This document shows positions 41,432-47,750 of a stretch of DNA of 64,000 bases, piece after piece (positions within the stretch are counted from its first letter, which is position 1; every line of letters starts with the position of its first letter). The notes below the pieces were generated by a model. The model had not been told where the DNA came from, did no database searches, and saw only the letters and a program-made list of their open reading frames with translations. The translations under genes were made by a program, and so were the position numbers. The stretch is taken from NCBI GenBank assembly GCA_029237775.1, contig JAQZBR010000005.1, positions 62,001 to 126,000 on the forward strand, read 5' to 3'. This DNA comes from Bacteroidota bacterium. GTDB lineage: Bacteria > Bacteroidota > Bacteroidia > 2-12-FULL-35-15.

Positions 41432-42691
41432 ATGCAGAAAACATTATTGCTTTTTTTTATGACACTCCTTTGCTCACACAAAGTGAATGCTCAATTCGCA
41501 GATTTCCAGTTTCACAGAAAGCTTGATAAAGTCGGGACCGAAAATTATTACTCAGTTCCACTTTCACCCGCTATAATAGCAAACATGCAAAATCCGCTTG
41601 ATGATCTGCGGATCTATAACATTGACGGAAAGGATACCATCGAAGTTCCGTTTCTGCTTGAGTATCACGGGGATGAAACTATTGAAACACCTGTTAAGTT
41701 TGAATTAATCAATGATGTTACGCGGTTAAAGTGTTGCTCTTATATCACCTTAAAGATGCCAAAGAAAATGGTCATAAACATGATCAATCTGAAGGTTCTT
41801 GAAAATAATTTCGATAAGATACTCAGTGTCGAAGGGAGCAACGATAATAAAGAATGGTTCACGATCGCCAGCCATTTAAGGATCACAGGCTTCGAAAATT
41901 CAAACTCAAGCTTTCGTAGCACATCGGTAAGGTTCCCTTCCTCTGAATTTGTTTACTTCAGAATTAAATTTGATGATGATTCAAGTCCTAAGATCACGGT
42001 AACCGATGCTAATGCTTTCGAAAACAAAACTATCAAAGGTAACTATGATGAAATCGCGATAGTTAAAAGCAGTCAAGTGGAAAACAAGAAAGAGAAGACC
42101 TCTGAGCTGATACTTGAGTTGAAGGGGAATAACAGGCTTAGCTATATTCTTTTGAAAAGCAACGCAAAGAATGACTTCTATAGGAATATTAATATATACA
42201 AATCAAACGGAAGTTACCAGACCCCCAAAGGTCCTGAAGAAGCCTGGCAGATAATAAATTCCGGAGTGGTTATTTCAAATACAAGCAATGAGCTTTCATT
42301 ACAGAATGAACATTCCTCAAAATTAAAAATTGAAATTATCAATCATGATAATCAACCTATTTCCTTTGATGAGATAAAACTTTATTCAGAAAAGATAGAG
42401 ATGAAGGCGAAATTACCTGCCAGTGAAAATCTTTTTCTTGTGTATGGGAGTAAGTCGATAGCTGCACCCGTGTATGACCTGGTACATTTTCAAGAAAAGA
42501 TTCCGCAATCCCTATCTGTAATAAATTCTGGGAAAGAAGAAATTCAAGCGGCAGTATTGGTGGGGAAAGCGAATGAGCCGTTCATACAAAACAAAAAGTG
42601 GCTTTGGCTTATCATGGGTTCTTTAATAATTCTGATTGGATATTTTGCATTCAGCATGCTGAAAAAAGAAAACAGCGAAGATAATGTTTAG
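41432..42691 (+). CDS. DUF3999 family exported protein
   Basis: A 419-aa protein with a signal peptide (MQKTLLLFFMTLLCSHKVNA), a long extracytoplasmic beta-rich region and one C-terminal membrane segment (about 388-408). DUF3999 proteins are the usual neighbours of DUF2339 membrane proteins. Being anchored with a large external domain, it may receive or bind something in the periplasm for the DUF2339 partner. The stop overlaps the stop of the convergent phosphatase gene by three bases. Confidence 0.82.
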   Translation: MQKTLLLFFMTLLCSHKVNAQFADFQFHRKLDKVGTENYYSVPLSPAIIANMQNPLDDLRIYNIDGKDTIEVPFLLEYHGDETIETPVKFELINDVTRLKCCSYITLKMPKKMVINMINLKVLENNFDKILSVEGSNDNKEWFTIASHLRITGFENSNSSFRSTSVRFPSSEFVYFRIKFDDDSSPKITVTDANAFENKTIKGNYDEIAIVKSSQVENKKEKTSELILELKGNNRLSYILLKSNAKNDFYRNINIYKSNGSYQTPKGPEEAWQIINSGVVISNTSNELSLQNEHSSKLKIEIINHDNQPISFDEIKLYSEKIEMKAKLPASENLFLVYGSKSIAAPVYDLVHFQEKIPQSLSVINSGKEEIQAAVLVGKANEPFIQNKKWLWLIMGSLIILIGYFAFSMLKKENSEDNV

Positions 42692-43971
42692 AGCTTTAAT
42701 CCGAACAAAAGCATGTCATCCACTTGTTCATGATCTCCTTTCCAGTCATTCATATAGTTTTCAATAATCACCTTCTGTTGAATCATATGCTTGAAGCGGA
42801 GTGATGAAAGAAATGTTTTAAATCTCTTTTTCATAAGCTTCTTACTTTTCTCTCCGCCAAACTGATCAATAACACCATCTGTAAATAAGTAGAGCATGTC
42901 ACCGGGTTCTGCTTGTTTAAAATTTGTTTTAAATCCGGGGAGTTCATGATCATTGTCGCGGGTTCCGCTGATCGCCCGTTTAGTGCCTTTTATTTCTTCC
43001 AGTCCGTGCTGGTGCATGATCCACAAAGGCCGGTTCGCACCTGCAAATTCAATCAGATGTGTATTAAGATTGATACTGCAAACGGCTACATCCATTCCGT
43101 CTTTTGGATCCTTTTGACGAAAAAAATTAGAAATTTCAACGTTGAGCTCGTCTAAAATATCAGCCGGTTTAGTGATCTGTTTCTCATTTATGATTTTATT
43201 CAGCATGATCGTCCCTGCAACACTCATTAACGCACCGGGGACACCATGGCCTGTGCAATCCACTACAGCGATGATAAGTTTATCATCGCATTTTTCCAAC
43301 CAGTAAAAATCTCCGCTGACAATATCTTTCGCCTGATTGTACACGAACCAATCAGAGACAAGCTCATCGAGCATATCTGTTTCAGTAAGCATCGCTTCCT
43401 GTAACTTCCTGGCATAAATTATACTATCCGTTATATTTTTGTTTTTTTCCTCAATCTCCCTGAATGCATTTTTCAATTGTCTGTGCAATTCTTCTACTGC
43501 TTCTTTCTCACGCTTTATAAGATCTCCAGCCAATATATTTTCGATGGACGCAGGCAGCCTTTTCAAGGAATGTTTAAGAATATAGTCATTCACTCCTGCT
43601 TTCATGCATGACACTGCAAACTCTTCAGATACAGTGCCTGTAACGAGTATAAAAGGTATGTTGTAGTTCTTATTAACAATAGCAAAAGCATCAAGAGAAT
43701 TGAACTTTGGAAGTGCATGATCAGAAAGAATGATATCAGGTTCAAAATTATTCAACCCTATAATAAAATCCTCTCTTGTATCAACCACATGAAGGGTGAA
43801 AACCAATCCTGACATACTTAACTCGCGTTTGATCAGTCCCGCATCGGATGGATTATCCTCCAGCAATAATATTTTCAGATGCTTCTTCATAGAAATTGCG
43901 GGCGATTGACAGGGAGATTCAATCTTTTTATGAAGTTCACGAAAACTTTGTGCCCGACTATTTTTATTCAT
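42688..43971 (-). CDS. response regulator with SpoIIE-type PP2C phosphatase
   Basis: A 427-aa protein: receiver domain (about 33-150; phospho-Asp84 in IILSDHALPKF, Lys in DYILKHSL), a coiled coil (about 155-195) and an SpoIIE PP2C phosphatase (about 200-427; SGDFYWLEK, VDCTGHGVPGALMS and LYLFTDGVID with metal-binding Asp residues). It dephosphorylates a serine/threonine-phosphorylated partner, typically a STAS anti-anti-sigma protein. ATG 43971 directly follows the stop of the kinase gene; an in-frame ATG at 43890 is an alternative. Receiver residues closely match those of the neighbouring kinase. Confidence 0.9.
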   Translation of the reverse strand: MNKNSRAQSFRELHKKIESPCQSPAISMKKHLKILLLEDNPSDAGLIKRELSMSGLVFTLHVVDTREDFIIGLNNFEPDIILSDHALPKFNSLDAFAIVNKNYNIPFILVTGTVSEEFAVSCMKAGVNDYILKHSLKRLPASIENILAGDLIKREKEAVEELHRQLKNAFREIEEKNKNITDSIIYARKLQEAMLTETDMLDELVSDWFVYNQAKDIVSGDFYWLEKCDDKLIIAVVDCTGHGVPGALMSVAGTIMLNKIINEKQITKPADILDELNVEISNFFRQKDPKDGMDVAVCSINLNTHLIEFAGANRPLWIMHQHGLEEIKGTKRAISGTRDNDHELPGFKTNFKQAEPGDMLYLFTDGVIDQFGGEKSKKLMKKRFKTFLSSLRFKHMIQQKVIIENYMNDWKGDHEQVDDMLLFGLKL

Positions 43972-45060
43972 TTAATTCAGGGCAAGATCAGGCAGATCAA
44001 GAATAACTGTAGTCCCCATCTGCTCCATGCTAGTTATTTCAATTTTCCCATCGAGCTTATCTGTTCCTATTTTAACAAGATAAAGGCCCAGTCCAATTCC
44101 GTCTGATTCAGTGTTTGCTCTGTAAAACATATCGAATACCTTTGGAAGGCATTCCTCCTTAATACCCGCTCCGTTATCTGCTATGGATATCGAGGCTCCA
44201 TTCTCATTCGACCATATATTTATATTAACATAAGGCCCCGGAACGGAGAAATTCTGGAATTTCACAGCATTATCGATAATACGTTTCAGAACGAGTGTAA
44301 TGATCTTTGAATCAGAATAAAATGATGACTGCAGGTTTGATTCAATACTAAACTTGAGTTTATTACCGGTTTGTGTGGTATAACCTGCTATAATTTCATT
44401 AACAATCGCCTTTAGATTCACTTCTTCTTTCACAACATTCATATCACGAACTCCAAGGGTTTCGATAAGATCAACGACAATCCTGTCCATTCGTTCAGCG
44501 CTTACATTCATCATATCAATAAGCTTCATAAGTTCGGAAGGCTCATTTTCGATCTTTGCGATGTTTATCAAACCTTTCATAGAGCTTAATGGCCCGCGAA
44601 TATCGTGCGAGGCCCGATACATGAAGGTCTTAAGTTCATGATTGACCTCCTGCAGTTTGAGAATGTTCTGCTCTCTTTCGCTTTCCGCTTTCTTTTTAGT
44701 GAAAGCGTTAATAATGGCGGAGGGCAAGCGGGTTAGTGATGATTTCAGAACGTAGTCGTTGGCACCTGCTTTTAGAATGTTAACGGCAAATTCTTCCGAA
44801 ACGGTGCCGGTTACTAATATAAAAACACATTCACGGCAATATTGGTGAGCGAGAGGAAGGGCTTCTTCTGAAGTAAAGGATGGGAGGGAATGATCCGATA
44901 AAATTACATGTGGCTTAAATTCAAGAAGAGCAGCAATAAAATCATCTTTATTATCGACTACCCTGTGTTCATAGCGAAGGTCCGACATCTTCAATGCTCT
45001 AACTGTAAGACCTGCATCAGCAGGATTATCTTCCAAAATCAAAATCTTCAGCACAAACAT
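43972..45060 (-). CDS. receiver-histidine kinase hybrid
   Basis: A 362-aa soluble protein: receiver (about 4-120; phospho-Asp56 in VILSDHSLP), a short coiled coil, HisKA with His152 (SHDIRGPLSS) and an ATPase domain with DNAVKFQ, DNGAGIKEE and DGIGLGLYLVK. With the abutting phosphatase protein it forms a linked module. The receiver shares the phrase ILVTGTVSEEFAV with that protein. The kinase may phosphorylate one or both receivers. A terminator at 45083-45134 isolates it from the small-protein genes upstream. Confidence 0.92.
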   Translation of the reverse strand: MFVLKILILEDNPADAGLTVRALKMSDLRYEHRVVDNKDDFIAALLEFKPHVILSDHSLPSFTSEEALPLAHQYCRECVFILVTGTVSEEFAVNILKAGANDYVLKSSLTRLPSAIINAFTKKKAESEREQNILKLQEVNHELKTFMYRASHDIRGPLSSMKGLINIAKIENEPSELMKLIDMMNVSAERMDRIVVDLIETLGVRDMNVVKEEVNLKAIVNEIIAGYTTQTGNKLKFSIESNLQSSFYSDSKIITLVLKRIIDNAVKFQNFSVPGPYVNINIWSNENGASISIADNGAGIKEECLPKVFDMFYRANTESDGIGLGLYLVKIGTDKLDGKIEITSMEQMGTTVILDLPDLALN

Positions 45061-45082: not shown

Positions 45083-45134
45083 AAAGAGCAAGGTGTCAAC
45101 GACTACTTCCCCCGTTAAACACCTTGCCTTTTTA
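45083..45134 (-). terminator. terminator of the small-membrane-protein operon
   Basis: Stem GCAAGGTGT / ACACCTTGC around a 22-base loop, followed on the minus strand by a T run. It ends the transcript of 45187-45793. Confidence 0.75.
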
Positions 45135-45186: not shown

Positions 45187-45495
45187 TCAGTAGGTATTAA
45201 CCGCAATCTCATCTCCTATCGATAAAACATCTGCCACATGATATTCCCCATTCTTCACCAAAAATGCGAGCCACTGATTTGTGTTTTTAACCGGACTAAT
45301 GCTACAAACTATATAACCTTTATCTGTGAGATATTTATCAACTTGTTTAGCTGTTTTATAGGCCGAAGCATTGGTCTCCGGTTTTCCAATCTCTTTTATT
45401 ATCAGACTCCCGAACGTATATAACAAGATTCCGATTGCTGTAATAAACACAAGAAAGAATACTATTTCCGGAAAGGAGGTGAAGGCTGATTGCAT
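45187..45495 (-). CDS. small membrane protein, paralog of the next gene
   Basis: A 102-aa protein with one membrane segment (about 8-33) and a soluble domain: NASAYKTAKQVDKYLTDKGY, VCSISPVKNTNQWLAFLV, then AVNTY at the end. No family is recognised. The stretch NASAY...VDKYLTDKGYIVCSISP aligns with the upstream gene's NAASY...VNEYLVSHGYTVVSLAP, so the two are paralogs. It is 4 bp after the upstream gene and is second in a two-gene operon. Confidence 0.75.
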   Translation of the reverse strand: MQSAFTSFPEIVFFLVFITAIGILLYTFGSLIIKEIGKPETNASAYKTAKQVDKYLTDKGYIVCSISPVKNTNQWLAFLVKNGEYHVADVLSIGDEIAVNTY

Positions 45496-45499
45496 ATAT

Positions 45500-45793
45500 T
45501 TATAGTGGCATGTCTGTATTTCCTACAATACTAGTTTCTGTGCAATACACTGTAGTGGTATATCGAACAAGATTCTTAGATGTCTGAGCTGTCCAATCCA
45601 TACTTCCTGACTTTGGTGCTAGACTAACAACGGTATATCCGTGCGATACTAAATATTCATTTACCTGACTATATGAGGCAGCATTCGCCTCGCTTACTGT
45701 CTTAATTCCCTTGGTTGATAATACTACTGACCCACCTGTAAATAAAGCTATTAATAATACACCCTTAAGCACTAATTTCACGACCTGTCTCAT
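45500..45793 (-). CDS. small exported or membrane protein, paralog of the previous gene
   Basis: A 97-aa protein with a membrane segment or signal peptide (about 8-26) and a C-terminal soluble domain. The core VNEYLVSHGYTVVSLAPKSG and MDWTAQTSKN correspond to the downstream paralog. Its own start is ATG 45793. Across a 347-bp divergent spacer lies a large helical-repeat protein gene. It is the first gene of a two-gene operon ended by a terminator at 45083-45134. Its function is unknown. Confidence 0.75.
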   Translation of the reverse strand: MRQVVKLVLKGVLLIALFTGGSVVLSTKGIKTVSEANAASYSQVNEYLVSHGYTVVSLAPKSGSMDWTAQTSKNLVRYTTTVYCTETSIVGNTDMPL

Positions 45794-45864
45794 GTTTTGT
45801 TGATTTATAAGTTAAACTGTTACTTTGATTGATACAAAGTAACATCTGTCAGAATAATAAAACA

Positions 45865-45891
45865 TGGACAAATCGTACAATCACGCAACAT
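45865..45891 (+). promoter_or_regulatory. first copy of the TGGACAAAT...GCAACAT repeat
   Basis: TGGACAAAT, N11, GCAACAT. Copy 2 is at 46043-46069 with the same 11-base spacer. Both also share GT two bases into the spacer. It lies 72 bp from the minus-strand start at 45793. It is a candidate binding site of a regulator that acts on both transcripts. Confidence 0.6.
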
Positions 45892-46042
45892 CCTCAAAGA
45901 CGTTTATTTTAAAGGGATTTATATAAAAATATAGCATATTTTTACATCGCAGTTAATTTTTGTTTTTTCTTTAACACATCTCGTTTTTTCAGAAATGCAT
46001 TAATTTTATTTACAAAACTCGCGAACTTCACGAACATACAAC

Positions 46043-46069
46043 TGGACAAATGGTCTATTTATGCAACAT
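46043..46069 (+). promoter_or_regulatory. second copy of the TGGACAAAT...GCAACAT repeat
   Basis: TGGACAAAT, N11, GCAACAT in the same orientation as copy 1, 178 bp apart and 71 bp before the ATG at 46141. Confidence 0.6.
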
Positions 46070-46140
46070 TCAATAAACCATTAATAACAGTAGGTTTCCT
46101 GTCAAAAAACAGCTTTTTTTAATTAATAAATCAAACAAGA

Positions 46141-47601
46141 ATGGCACAGTTTATCGATTCAATATTGGAAAGTTTAACCGATTCTGAAAAATGGGTAGTT
46201 GAGCGTTTTTTTTCCTTACAACAGAAAAACAACAACTATTTAACAAGAAAATATATTGTTAATAAAATCAAAAAAGTCAAAGCTGACAAGTCGAATGTTT
46301 TCAGCAGGACCTTAGTTTCAAGAGCTTTTGACGAATTGAGTGAGGTATTGACTTCTACCTATCATTTAAATAATGGAAATTTCAGTCGACACGATAGAAT
46401 TCTTTTACAATTAAAAAAGAAAATTTTGCTAGCAAGAATAATATCGAAGAATCTAAATCAAAATAAGATGAAATCTTTTAAGGTTTACTTGAATGTACTG
46501 ATTTCCGAAGCCTTAAAGAACGAAATATATGAGGTTGCGATAGAAGCGTTGATTATTAAGAAATACGCATATGCCCTGAAAGAAGGTTCCAGAGAATTTC
46601 AGAAGACCAATCAGCTCATTGATTACCTAGAACTCTGTCAAAAGAAAACCTTTTATGCAGCTGATTGCTATTTTATCATTGTCAGTAATAACGACTTATT
46701 AAAATTAAAAGATAGTAAAGCACTACACGACTATATACTGAAAACTATTAGAATCCTTAAGGCTGATTACAAAAAATTTAAATCGTCTCAGATCAATTAT
46801 TATTTACAAATTATTCTAATGTATTATAATGAGAAACGAAAAAAGTACAATTTGGCGAGCAAATATGCGAAACAAATCTTCGACCTAGTAAAGAATTCCC
46901 CTGTATTGTACAGAGAAGAAAGATTGGGATTTGCAATGATAAATTTAAGTCAATACAAAACACTTACTGGAAATTATTCCTCAGCTGCTAAATACATAAA
47001 GTTATCGCAAGCCTATTATATCGAAAGCTCCAATAATTATCTTATTTCGAAAAATCAGGAATTTTTAATTTTTTTATATCAGAAAAAGTACGATAGAGCA
47101 CAAAGTTGTTTAAATGAATTGATGGAACACAAACTTTCCGATAGCGGTACTTTTAACCACGCGAAGTATATATATTATAATGCAGTGCTCCTTTTTCAGC
47201 GAAAAGAATTCAAGAAGTCTTTAACAGTACTTGCAAAGTCGCTCGAAATTGAAAAAGATAAAACAAGATGGAATATTTCTGTACGAGTACTAAGTATCAT
47301 GCTATTTATCGAACTAAGAAAAGTGGATGAAGCTATTTTAGCATTGCAATCGTTGCGGAAATATGTTGAACGACAAAATAAAACAAAGGAAATAACTAAA
47401 AGAGATATTTTAATAGTGAAACTACTGCTAGAACTGGAAAAATCAGGGTTTGACTATGATAAAAACAATTTCACATTAAAAAGAGGCTTTGAAAAGCTTT
47501 CAGAAATCAACTCAATATATTCCTGGCAGTATTTCAGCTCTGAACTTATCCCCTTTCATGAATGGGTCAATAAATTCATCATTTCTAAACATATGGATTA
47601 A
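46141..47601 (+). CDS. AT-rich helical-repeat (TPR-like) protein of unknown function
   Basis: A 486-aa, all-helical, lysine-rich protein without a signal peptide or membrane segment. The first 60 residues (LTDSEKWVVERFFSLQQ ... SRTLVSRAFDEL) could be a small DNA-binding or dimer domain, but no clear HTH is visible. The rest has repeated helix pairs with TPR-like phrases (AGNYSSAAKYIKLSQAYY and FNHAKYIYYNAVLLF). One sample line of the gene counts 25% G+C against 40% in the neighbouring ATPase gene, a sign of transfer or fast change. It might regulate the divergent small-protein operon; this is inference from place. Confidence 0.75.
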   Translation: MAQFIDSILESLTDSEKWVVERFFSLQQKNNNYLTRKYIVNKIKKVKADKSNVFSRTLVSRAFDELSEVLTSTYHLNNGNFSRHDRILLQLKKKILLARIISKNLNQNKMKSFKVYLNVLISEALKNEIYEVAIEALIIKKYAYALKEGSREFQKTNQLIDYLELCQKKTFYAADCYFIIVSNNDLLKLKDSKALHDYILKTIRILKADYKKFKSSQINYYLQIILMYYNEKRKKYNLASKYAKQIFDLVKNSPVLYREERLGFAMINLSQYKTLTGNYSSAAKYIKLSQAYYIESSNNYLISKNQEFLIFLYQKKYDRAQSCLNELMEHKLSDSGTFNHAKYIYYNAVLLFQRKEFKKSLTVLAKSLEIEKDKTRWNISVRVLSIMLFIELRKVDEAILALQSLRKYVERQNKTKEITKRDILIVKLLLELEKSGFDYDKNNFTLKRGFEKLSEINSIYSWQYFSSELIPFHEWVNKFIISKHMD

Positions 47602-47669: not shown

Positions 47670-47743
47670 GTGGCCATAGTTCAGTTGGTTAGAATATCGG
47701 TTTGTGGTACCGAGGGTCGTGGGTTCGAGCCCCATTGGCCACC
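47670..47743 (+). tRNA. tRNA-His (GTG)
   Basis: A cloverleaf with acceptor stem GTGGCCA / TGGCCAC, anticodon GTG in the TTTGTGGTA loop, T-arm GGGTTCGAGCCCC and discriminator C. A G at 47669 could be the G-1 typical of histidine tRNA. CCA is not encoded in full (CCAA). Confidence 0.95.
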
Positions 47744-47750
47744 CAAAAAA

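Follow-up and report, generated by a model that had tools for sequence, protein, structure and literature searches.

A candidate RRNPP-like peptide-signalling module in Bacteroidota: short precursor genes facing a TPR receptor gene

Introduction

Two small genes face a large one in the window analysed here (the whole stretch of 64,000 nucleotides from a Bacteroidota chromosome), which raises the question whether the three products belong to one system, and of which kind. The layout of a receptor gene facing a gene for a short exported protein is well known in Gram-positive bacteria, and cytoplasmic peptide-pheromone receptors have been described for Firmicutes. The initial annotation accordingly offered two readings, an RRNPP-type peptide-sensing system or a toxin/immunity system. 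The analysis favors the former: the locus is probably an RRNPP-like module, in which a peptide derived from a precursor is sensed by a tetratricopeptide repeat (TPR) receptor. That the precursor tail and the TPR protein form a ligand-receptor pair is held with good confidence; that the module serves signalling between cells appears rather likely, on balance.

Organization of the locus

The three open reading frames (ORFs) are present as annotated, with 102 aa (P0002) and 97 aa (P0003) on the minus strand and 486 aa (P0001) on the plus strand (Table 1). The paralogy proposed for the small proteins was confirmed in a whole-genome search (26% identity, E 2e-5), which revealed no further paralogue of either in the 4.08-Mb genome. 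Their genes are separated by 4 bp and form an operon, which is closed by a genuine terminator: the hairpin with its T run is strong (-25.3 kcal/mol, z -5.0), and was overlooked by a simple terminator scan because of its long loop. The P0001 gene is divergent from that of P0003, with an AT-rich gap of 347 bp between them. It is indeed AT-rich itself (30.5% G+C vs. 39.4% for the window), the 25% given in the initial annotation being a local low, and fits a trend of the family, whose genes have a mean G+C 3.8 points under that of their neighbors (122 comparisons). A tRNA was the sole match in an Rfam scan; tRNA-His lies at 47670-47744, directly downstream of the P0001 gene, and, together with the patchy distribution of the receptor, could mark an insertion site.

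Table 1. Features of the locus (positions in the window).
Feature	Position	Strand	Basis
Receptor candidate P0001, 486 aa	46141..47601	+	ORF list; AF2 model; family profile
Precursor candidate P0003 (97 aa): Sec-type signal peptide, then a domain of about 59 aa with tail SIVGNTDMPL	45500..45793	-	orthologues always beside receptor
Predicted P0003 signal peptide, residues 1-38, cleavage between ANA and ASYS	45680..45793	-	sequence, conserved AxA
C-terminal tail of P0003 (SIVGNTDMPL), predicted signal region	45503..45532	-	mature ends inferred
Second small gene, P0002 (102 aa): TM segment at the N-terminus, P0003-type domain, diverged tail	45187..45495	-	paralogy; orthologues
Terminator closing the P0003-P0002 operon	45083..45134	-	hairpin plus T run
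Promoter/operator signature TTTGTCC-N23-TTACTTTG upstream of P0003	45835..45872	-	kept in orthologous loci
Distal second TTTGTCCA box	46043..46050	-	orthologous loci comparison
Perfect inverted repeat (10 bp) that overlaps the -7-like element in the promoter of P0003	45818..45844	-	

Both small proteins had been annotated as membrane proteins. This seems to hold for P0002, which looks membrane-anchored, whereas P0003 is better read as secreted: it has an n-region with K/R and a hydrophobic core, and its AxA site is kept in most orthologues (ANA/A, AKA/A, AHA/S), the signal peptide having been read by eye from the sequence and the orthologue alignment. The predicted signal region of P0003, SIVGNTDMPL, fits the tail theme of the family, i.e., a hydrophobic pair, then acidic residues and a hydrophobic end; it is assigned by analogy, as the window has neither a repeat nor a duplicate tail. 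Orthologues of P0002 are found at five loci (L041-L043, L045, and L046). At three of these (L041:9820-10140, L042:6750-7070, L043:9985-10300), the P0002-type gene is split in two, such that a TM ORF of 32-36 aa overlaps the start of an ORF for the soluble domain (~77 aa) in another frame, while TM segment and domain are fused in the window, L045, and L046. The split arrangement suggests translational coupling or frameshifting.

Upstream of the small gene, the signature TTTGTCC-N23-TTA[CT]TTTG is invariant in all eight orthologous loci, most of which carry a second TTTGTCC box farther upstream; the inverted repeat is weakly conserved, with an 8-bp version in L045 only. Across 59 genomes, the full signature was found at the orthologous loci and at one stray site, and in the window's own genome its own site alone matches without mismatch. 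A signature search for a regulon in this genome gave nine matches, looser ones included, vs. 19 for the reversed control, and thus revealed no regulon. The near-confinement of the signature to the orthologous loci fits local autoregulation.

A candidate TPR receptor family with a patchy distribution

In line with the initial annotation, P0001 is predicted to be all-helical, with a TPR array and, at the N-terminus, a helical domain of some 80 aa, in a confident AF2 model (pLDDT 90.3, pTM 0.86). Foldseek against the PDB returned modest matches only (RapF, LGN, STAND TPR; about 4e-4). With VIA-align, the nine top rows and 13 of the top 16 are Rap or NprR structures (Z 18.7-20.5), led by Rap of pLS20 (6t3h_A, Z 20.5, rmsd 3.0 over 271 residues) and followed by RapI (Z 20.4), a phage Rap, and NprR (19.9); rows of AimR cover residues 1-486 at Z 15.9-16.2. 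Since LGN reaches Z 19.1, close to the 20.5 of Rap, the fold match alone is unspecific and supportive only. RRNPP receptors have at the N-terminus either a DNA-binding helix-turn-helix (HTH; PlcR, NprR, AimR) or a Rap-type helical bundle. The N-terminal domain, folded separately (pLDDT 87.8), has no significant fold match in the PDB; comparison with the PDB gives no support for an HTH, nor does the absence of a match count against one.

By sequence, a Pfam scan of 43 family members yielded essentially generic TPR models and none of RapH_N, HTH_3 plus TPR, or ComR_TPR, RRNPP receptors were absent from a PDB profile search with the family, and searches of Pfam, NCBIfam, and PHROGs gave nothing past weak TPR models. 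PADLOC contributed a single weak partial match (PDC-S05, residues 8-49, E 0.002). A single-sequence search found relatives of P0001 in 24 of 99 related genomes. A profile built from 43 members of this unnamed family, about 480-560 aa in length across the family, matches 103 of the 296 class genomes sampled (E 1e-10), with up to five members per genome. The count takes in a remote group, for the most part single-copy, with E near 1e-11 to 1e-20; members also occur in other classes of Bacteroidota. A related-locus search with P0001 in named genomes found no relatives, and one with a single receptor clade returned 24 loci, nearly all from metagenome-assembled genomes of Bacteroidia or Flavobacteriales. 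P0001 matched neither plasmid nor phage records.

Some members of the family, in receptor clusters 1, 7, and 12, lack a visible precursor. The window's own genome encodes a distant paralogue of P0001 (L138, G000:C3:596906-598345). It belongs to a widespread group, largely single-copy and with no precursor in sight, which may represent the ancestral housekeeping form. Precursors are likewise missing in a receptor clade (L030, L102, L112, L113, L119) of which several members adjoin long enzyme genes, one of them resembling a cobalamin-dependent mutase by eye; the receptor family may have additional uses.

Linkage of candidate receptor and precursor genes

Within the window's genus, nine of 36 genomes have the receptor, and precisely these nine also have the small proteins, always adjacent; in the co-occurrence test proposed with the initial annotation, small and large genes were therefore never found apart. 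Among 99 genomes, 22 of 23 small-protein matches have a receptor gene as their neighbor; the remaining match is marginal (E 6e-4). The linkage extends beyond the genus, as the layout of receptor and short ORF recurs in several classes of the phylum. That the genes are neighbors merely by shared inheritance of a stable locus, as the same flanking genes retained at several loci of the genus might suggest, is the least credible reading, given their joint patchy presence and absence (9/36 genomes) and a pairing that also holds where the sites are paralogous or unrelated, and in other classes.

Outside the genus, the place opposite the receptor is taken by other short ORFs, which have a hydrophobic helix at the N-terminus and often come in two to five tandem copies or are internally repeated. 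A strongly hydrophobic divergent ORF accompanies 57 of 101 family genes, compared to 28 of 126 controls (p 1e-7), i.e., other genes on the same contigs with comparable intergenic space; repeats within precursors or tandem ORFs occur at 15 of the 101 and at one control (Fisher p 3e-5), whose repeat is low-complexity. Examples are a 55-aa ORF ending in IIVDELQH in five copies (L107), a 29-aa ORF in four copies (L058), and internal repeats of IIVDEIGH (three, L037), KPSTMFDQTDGVRA (five, L038), GGTGGWVGDIAAV (six, L039), and GAGGWGGD (six, L176). In clade f2, the likely precursor lies downstream and is convergent, with tails that contain IIVIED, IIIFED, and IIVVDD (L029, L078, L091).

Compared to the 97 and 102 aa of the window, precursors beside receptors elsewhere measure 29-130 aa and fall into two classes. 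In long precursors (85-130 aa, P0003 among them), a basic n-region, a hydrophobic core, and in most cases an AxA site precede a domain of ~60 aa, at the end of which lies the tail. Short precursors (29-75 aa) nearly all lack a basic residue before the hydrophobic core and carry charged residues after it; without K/R before the core, a standard Sec signal is doubtful, so that the tail could stay intracellular. The class tracks the receptor tree (40 changes vs. 68 when shuffled). At seven loci from three receptor clades (L026, L027, L028, L033, L034, L040, L065), two conserved small genes (about 120 and about 95 aa) without Pfam match follow the precursor; they are possible output genes.

Conservation centered on the tail

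An identical tail of at least five residues is shared by divergent ORFs at 22 of 179 family genes (18 once duplicate contigs are removed), vs. one of 485 controls. At five loci, the shared tail sits on dissimilar bodies, 18-51% alike: AIVVVDTLEMN (L179, 18%), IIVDELQH (L110, 21%), IIDRGEEN (L180, 27%), IGTEQSGWGLK (L072, 32%), and DGSGFDLE (L075, 51%), where the ORFs of L179 and L180 have no hydrophobic leader. At L180, two ORFs of 24-26 aa that lack a leader and end in TLPYIIDRGEEN lie near two normal precursors, whose ends are IDRTED and IDRRED. When the precursors of 29-59 aa from one clade are aligned from the stop codon, they follow the pattern x-I-[IV]-x-x-[DE]-[DEQ]-x-[GD]-hydrophobic, with positions -9, -8, -5, and -4 most conserved and a drop beyond the last nine residues. 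Ka/Ks is 0.02-0.16 for short precursors and 0.40 for the long class; purifying selection at 0.02-0.16 indicates that the short ORFs are genes. The more alike two receptors are, the more alike are their tails (Mantel r 0.65, 0/5000 permutations; r is still 0.33 among receptors less than 40% identical), a correlation that is indicative only because the tails were hand-picked. On the receptor side, R421 is invariant, and K374, R382, R406, and R411 are conserved basic residues with which the acidic tail might pair.

A model of peptide sensing

The structure match, the strict linkage of small and large genes, tandem or repeated precursors, tails kept over dissimilar bodies, and recurrence across classes speak for the peptide-sensing reading of the initial annotation. 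The divergent small gene would encode a precursor that starts with a segment for export or membrane anchoring and whose C-terminal tail or repeated internal unit, about 8-11 residues with a hydrophobic pair, two spacers, and an acidic pair (e.g., IIGHEDVVM, IIGLEETDY), would be the ligand. P0001 is the putative cytoplasmic TPR receptor, which would bind the ligand and thereby change its activity. Computed support comes from the pairing of the genes, the RRNPP-like fold, the purifying selection that acts on precursors, and a tail that is both conserved and repeated. Against the model count the short precursors without K/R before the core, the LGN score close to that of Rap, the lack of sequence similarity to RRNPP proteins in Pfam and PDB profile searches, the family members without visible precursor, and the signal region of the window, which is assigned by analogy. 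For signalling between cells, the precursor would have to be cleaved, released, and re-imported. In RRNPP systems, precursors leave by Sec, and mature peptides re-enter through Opp; four OppA-like and two OppC-like genes in the genome show the possibility of re-import only. Peptides of the short class might be exported and taken up again to reach the receptor, or meet it from the membrane, and P0002 may be a membrane-held second ligand or a decoy. At the TTTGTCC-N23-TTACTTTG promoter, the module might regulate itself, and its output might run through binding to DNA or through a protein target, for instance from the adjacent two-component genes. Two response-regulator genes, for a REC-SpoIIE phosphatase and a REC-histidine kinase, lie at 42688-45060 just past the precursor operon, and in several clades REC genes are again found close to receptors. 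As response regulators are what Rap proteins act on, the adjacent REC genes are candidate targets. A universally conserved third partner was rejected, as recurrent neighbors are confined to few receptor clades.

The most serious alternative, though unlikely, is a ligand-receptor pair that works within a single cell, where a membrane peptide stays uncleaved in N-out/C-in orientation and its acidic cytosolic tail recruits the TPR protein or inhibits it. Such a topology would suit short-class precursors, with charged residues after the core and no K/R before it, the membrane-anchored look of P0002 and its orthologues, and the separate domain ORF without signal peptide in L041-L043. It does not account for the K/R n-regions and AxA sites of the long class, including P0003, nor for internal repeats such as IIVDEIGH and GAGGWGGD, which suggest that many units are released.

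Type I toxin loci also hold small hydrophobic proteins in tandem identical copies, and the tandem identical precursors seen here could in principle be membrane toxins with the TPR protein as antidote. This toxin-antitoxin or immunity reading, the second proposal of the initial annotation, is very improbable, as selection and sharing center on the tail rather than on the hydrophobic part, the long class has domains of 60 aa, and no toxin family was matched beyond the weak partial PADLOC hit. A leader plus a conserved or repeated core is the anatomy of RiPPs, too. Precursors of RiPPs or bacteriocins with the TPR protein as regulator are nevertheless just as hard to credit, since no recurrent modification enzyme or dedicated transporter was found in the neighborhoods across receptor clusters.

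Comparison with known systems

A large RRNPP survey covered Firmicutes and viral genomes only (PMC10075063). A search of the mainly open-access journal literature found no description of peptide signalling with TPR receptors in Bacteroidota, where the module is apparently undescribed so far. Among individual receptors, those of the arbitrium system (AimR; 6hp3, 6s7i) are the sole rows whose alignment with P0001 starts at residue 1-2 and runs through to the C-terminus (Z about 16), but P0001 is chromosomal and matches neither phage nor plasmid. The eukaryotic LGN/Pins and kinesin light chain likewise have a peptide-binding TPR superhelix (Z 16-19); their biology is unrelated, and the N-terminal domain of P0001 lies outside the match.

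With the RRNPP systems (RRNPPA; Rap-Phr, NprR-NprX, PlcR-PapR, AimR-AimP), the module shares a small precursor gene adjoining the gene of a TPR receptor. Their receptors, of about 250-500 aa, are the best structural matches of P0001, which at 486 aa lies within this range (many family members lie slightly above) and, as modelled, has a TPR peptide-binding domain; the window precursors are encoded adjacently, against a size of 10-100 aa in RRNPP systems. Further likenesses are a signal, here predicted, at the precursor C-terminus or in repeats, and many family members per genome with differing signals. On the other hand, the host is a Gram-negative member of Bacteroidota and not of Firmicutes, Pfam and PDB profile searches detected no sequence relation to a known subfamily, and Pfam assigns the N-terminal domain to neither HTH_3 nor RapH_N. 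The tails are acidic-hydrophobic, precursors are mostly divergent to the receptor, the short class lacks a basic n-region, and the long class has a conserved domain of ~60 aa. The module is thus RRNPP-like by anatomy, its sequence falling outside the known subfamilies. Chances seem about even that Bacteroidota own a phylum-wide family of peptide communication, independent by sequence of Firmicutes RRNPP, with many specificities per community and an acidic-hydrophobic tail ligand from multi-copy or multi-repeat precursors that crosses, or is anchored in, the Gram-negative envelope. If so, it would be a candidate peptide language for a major phylum of soil, water, and gut. Since the sequence alone gives both genes and the likely signal, the idea lends itself to direct testing.
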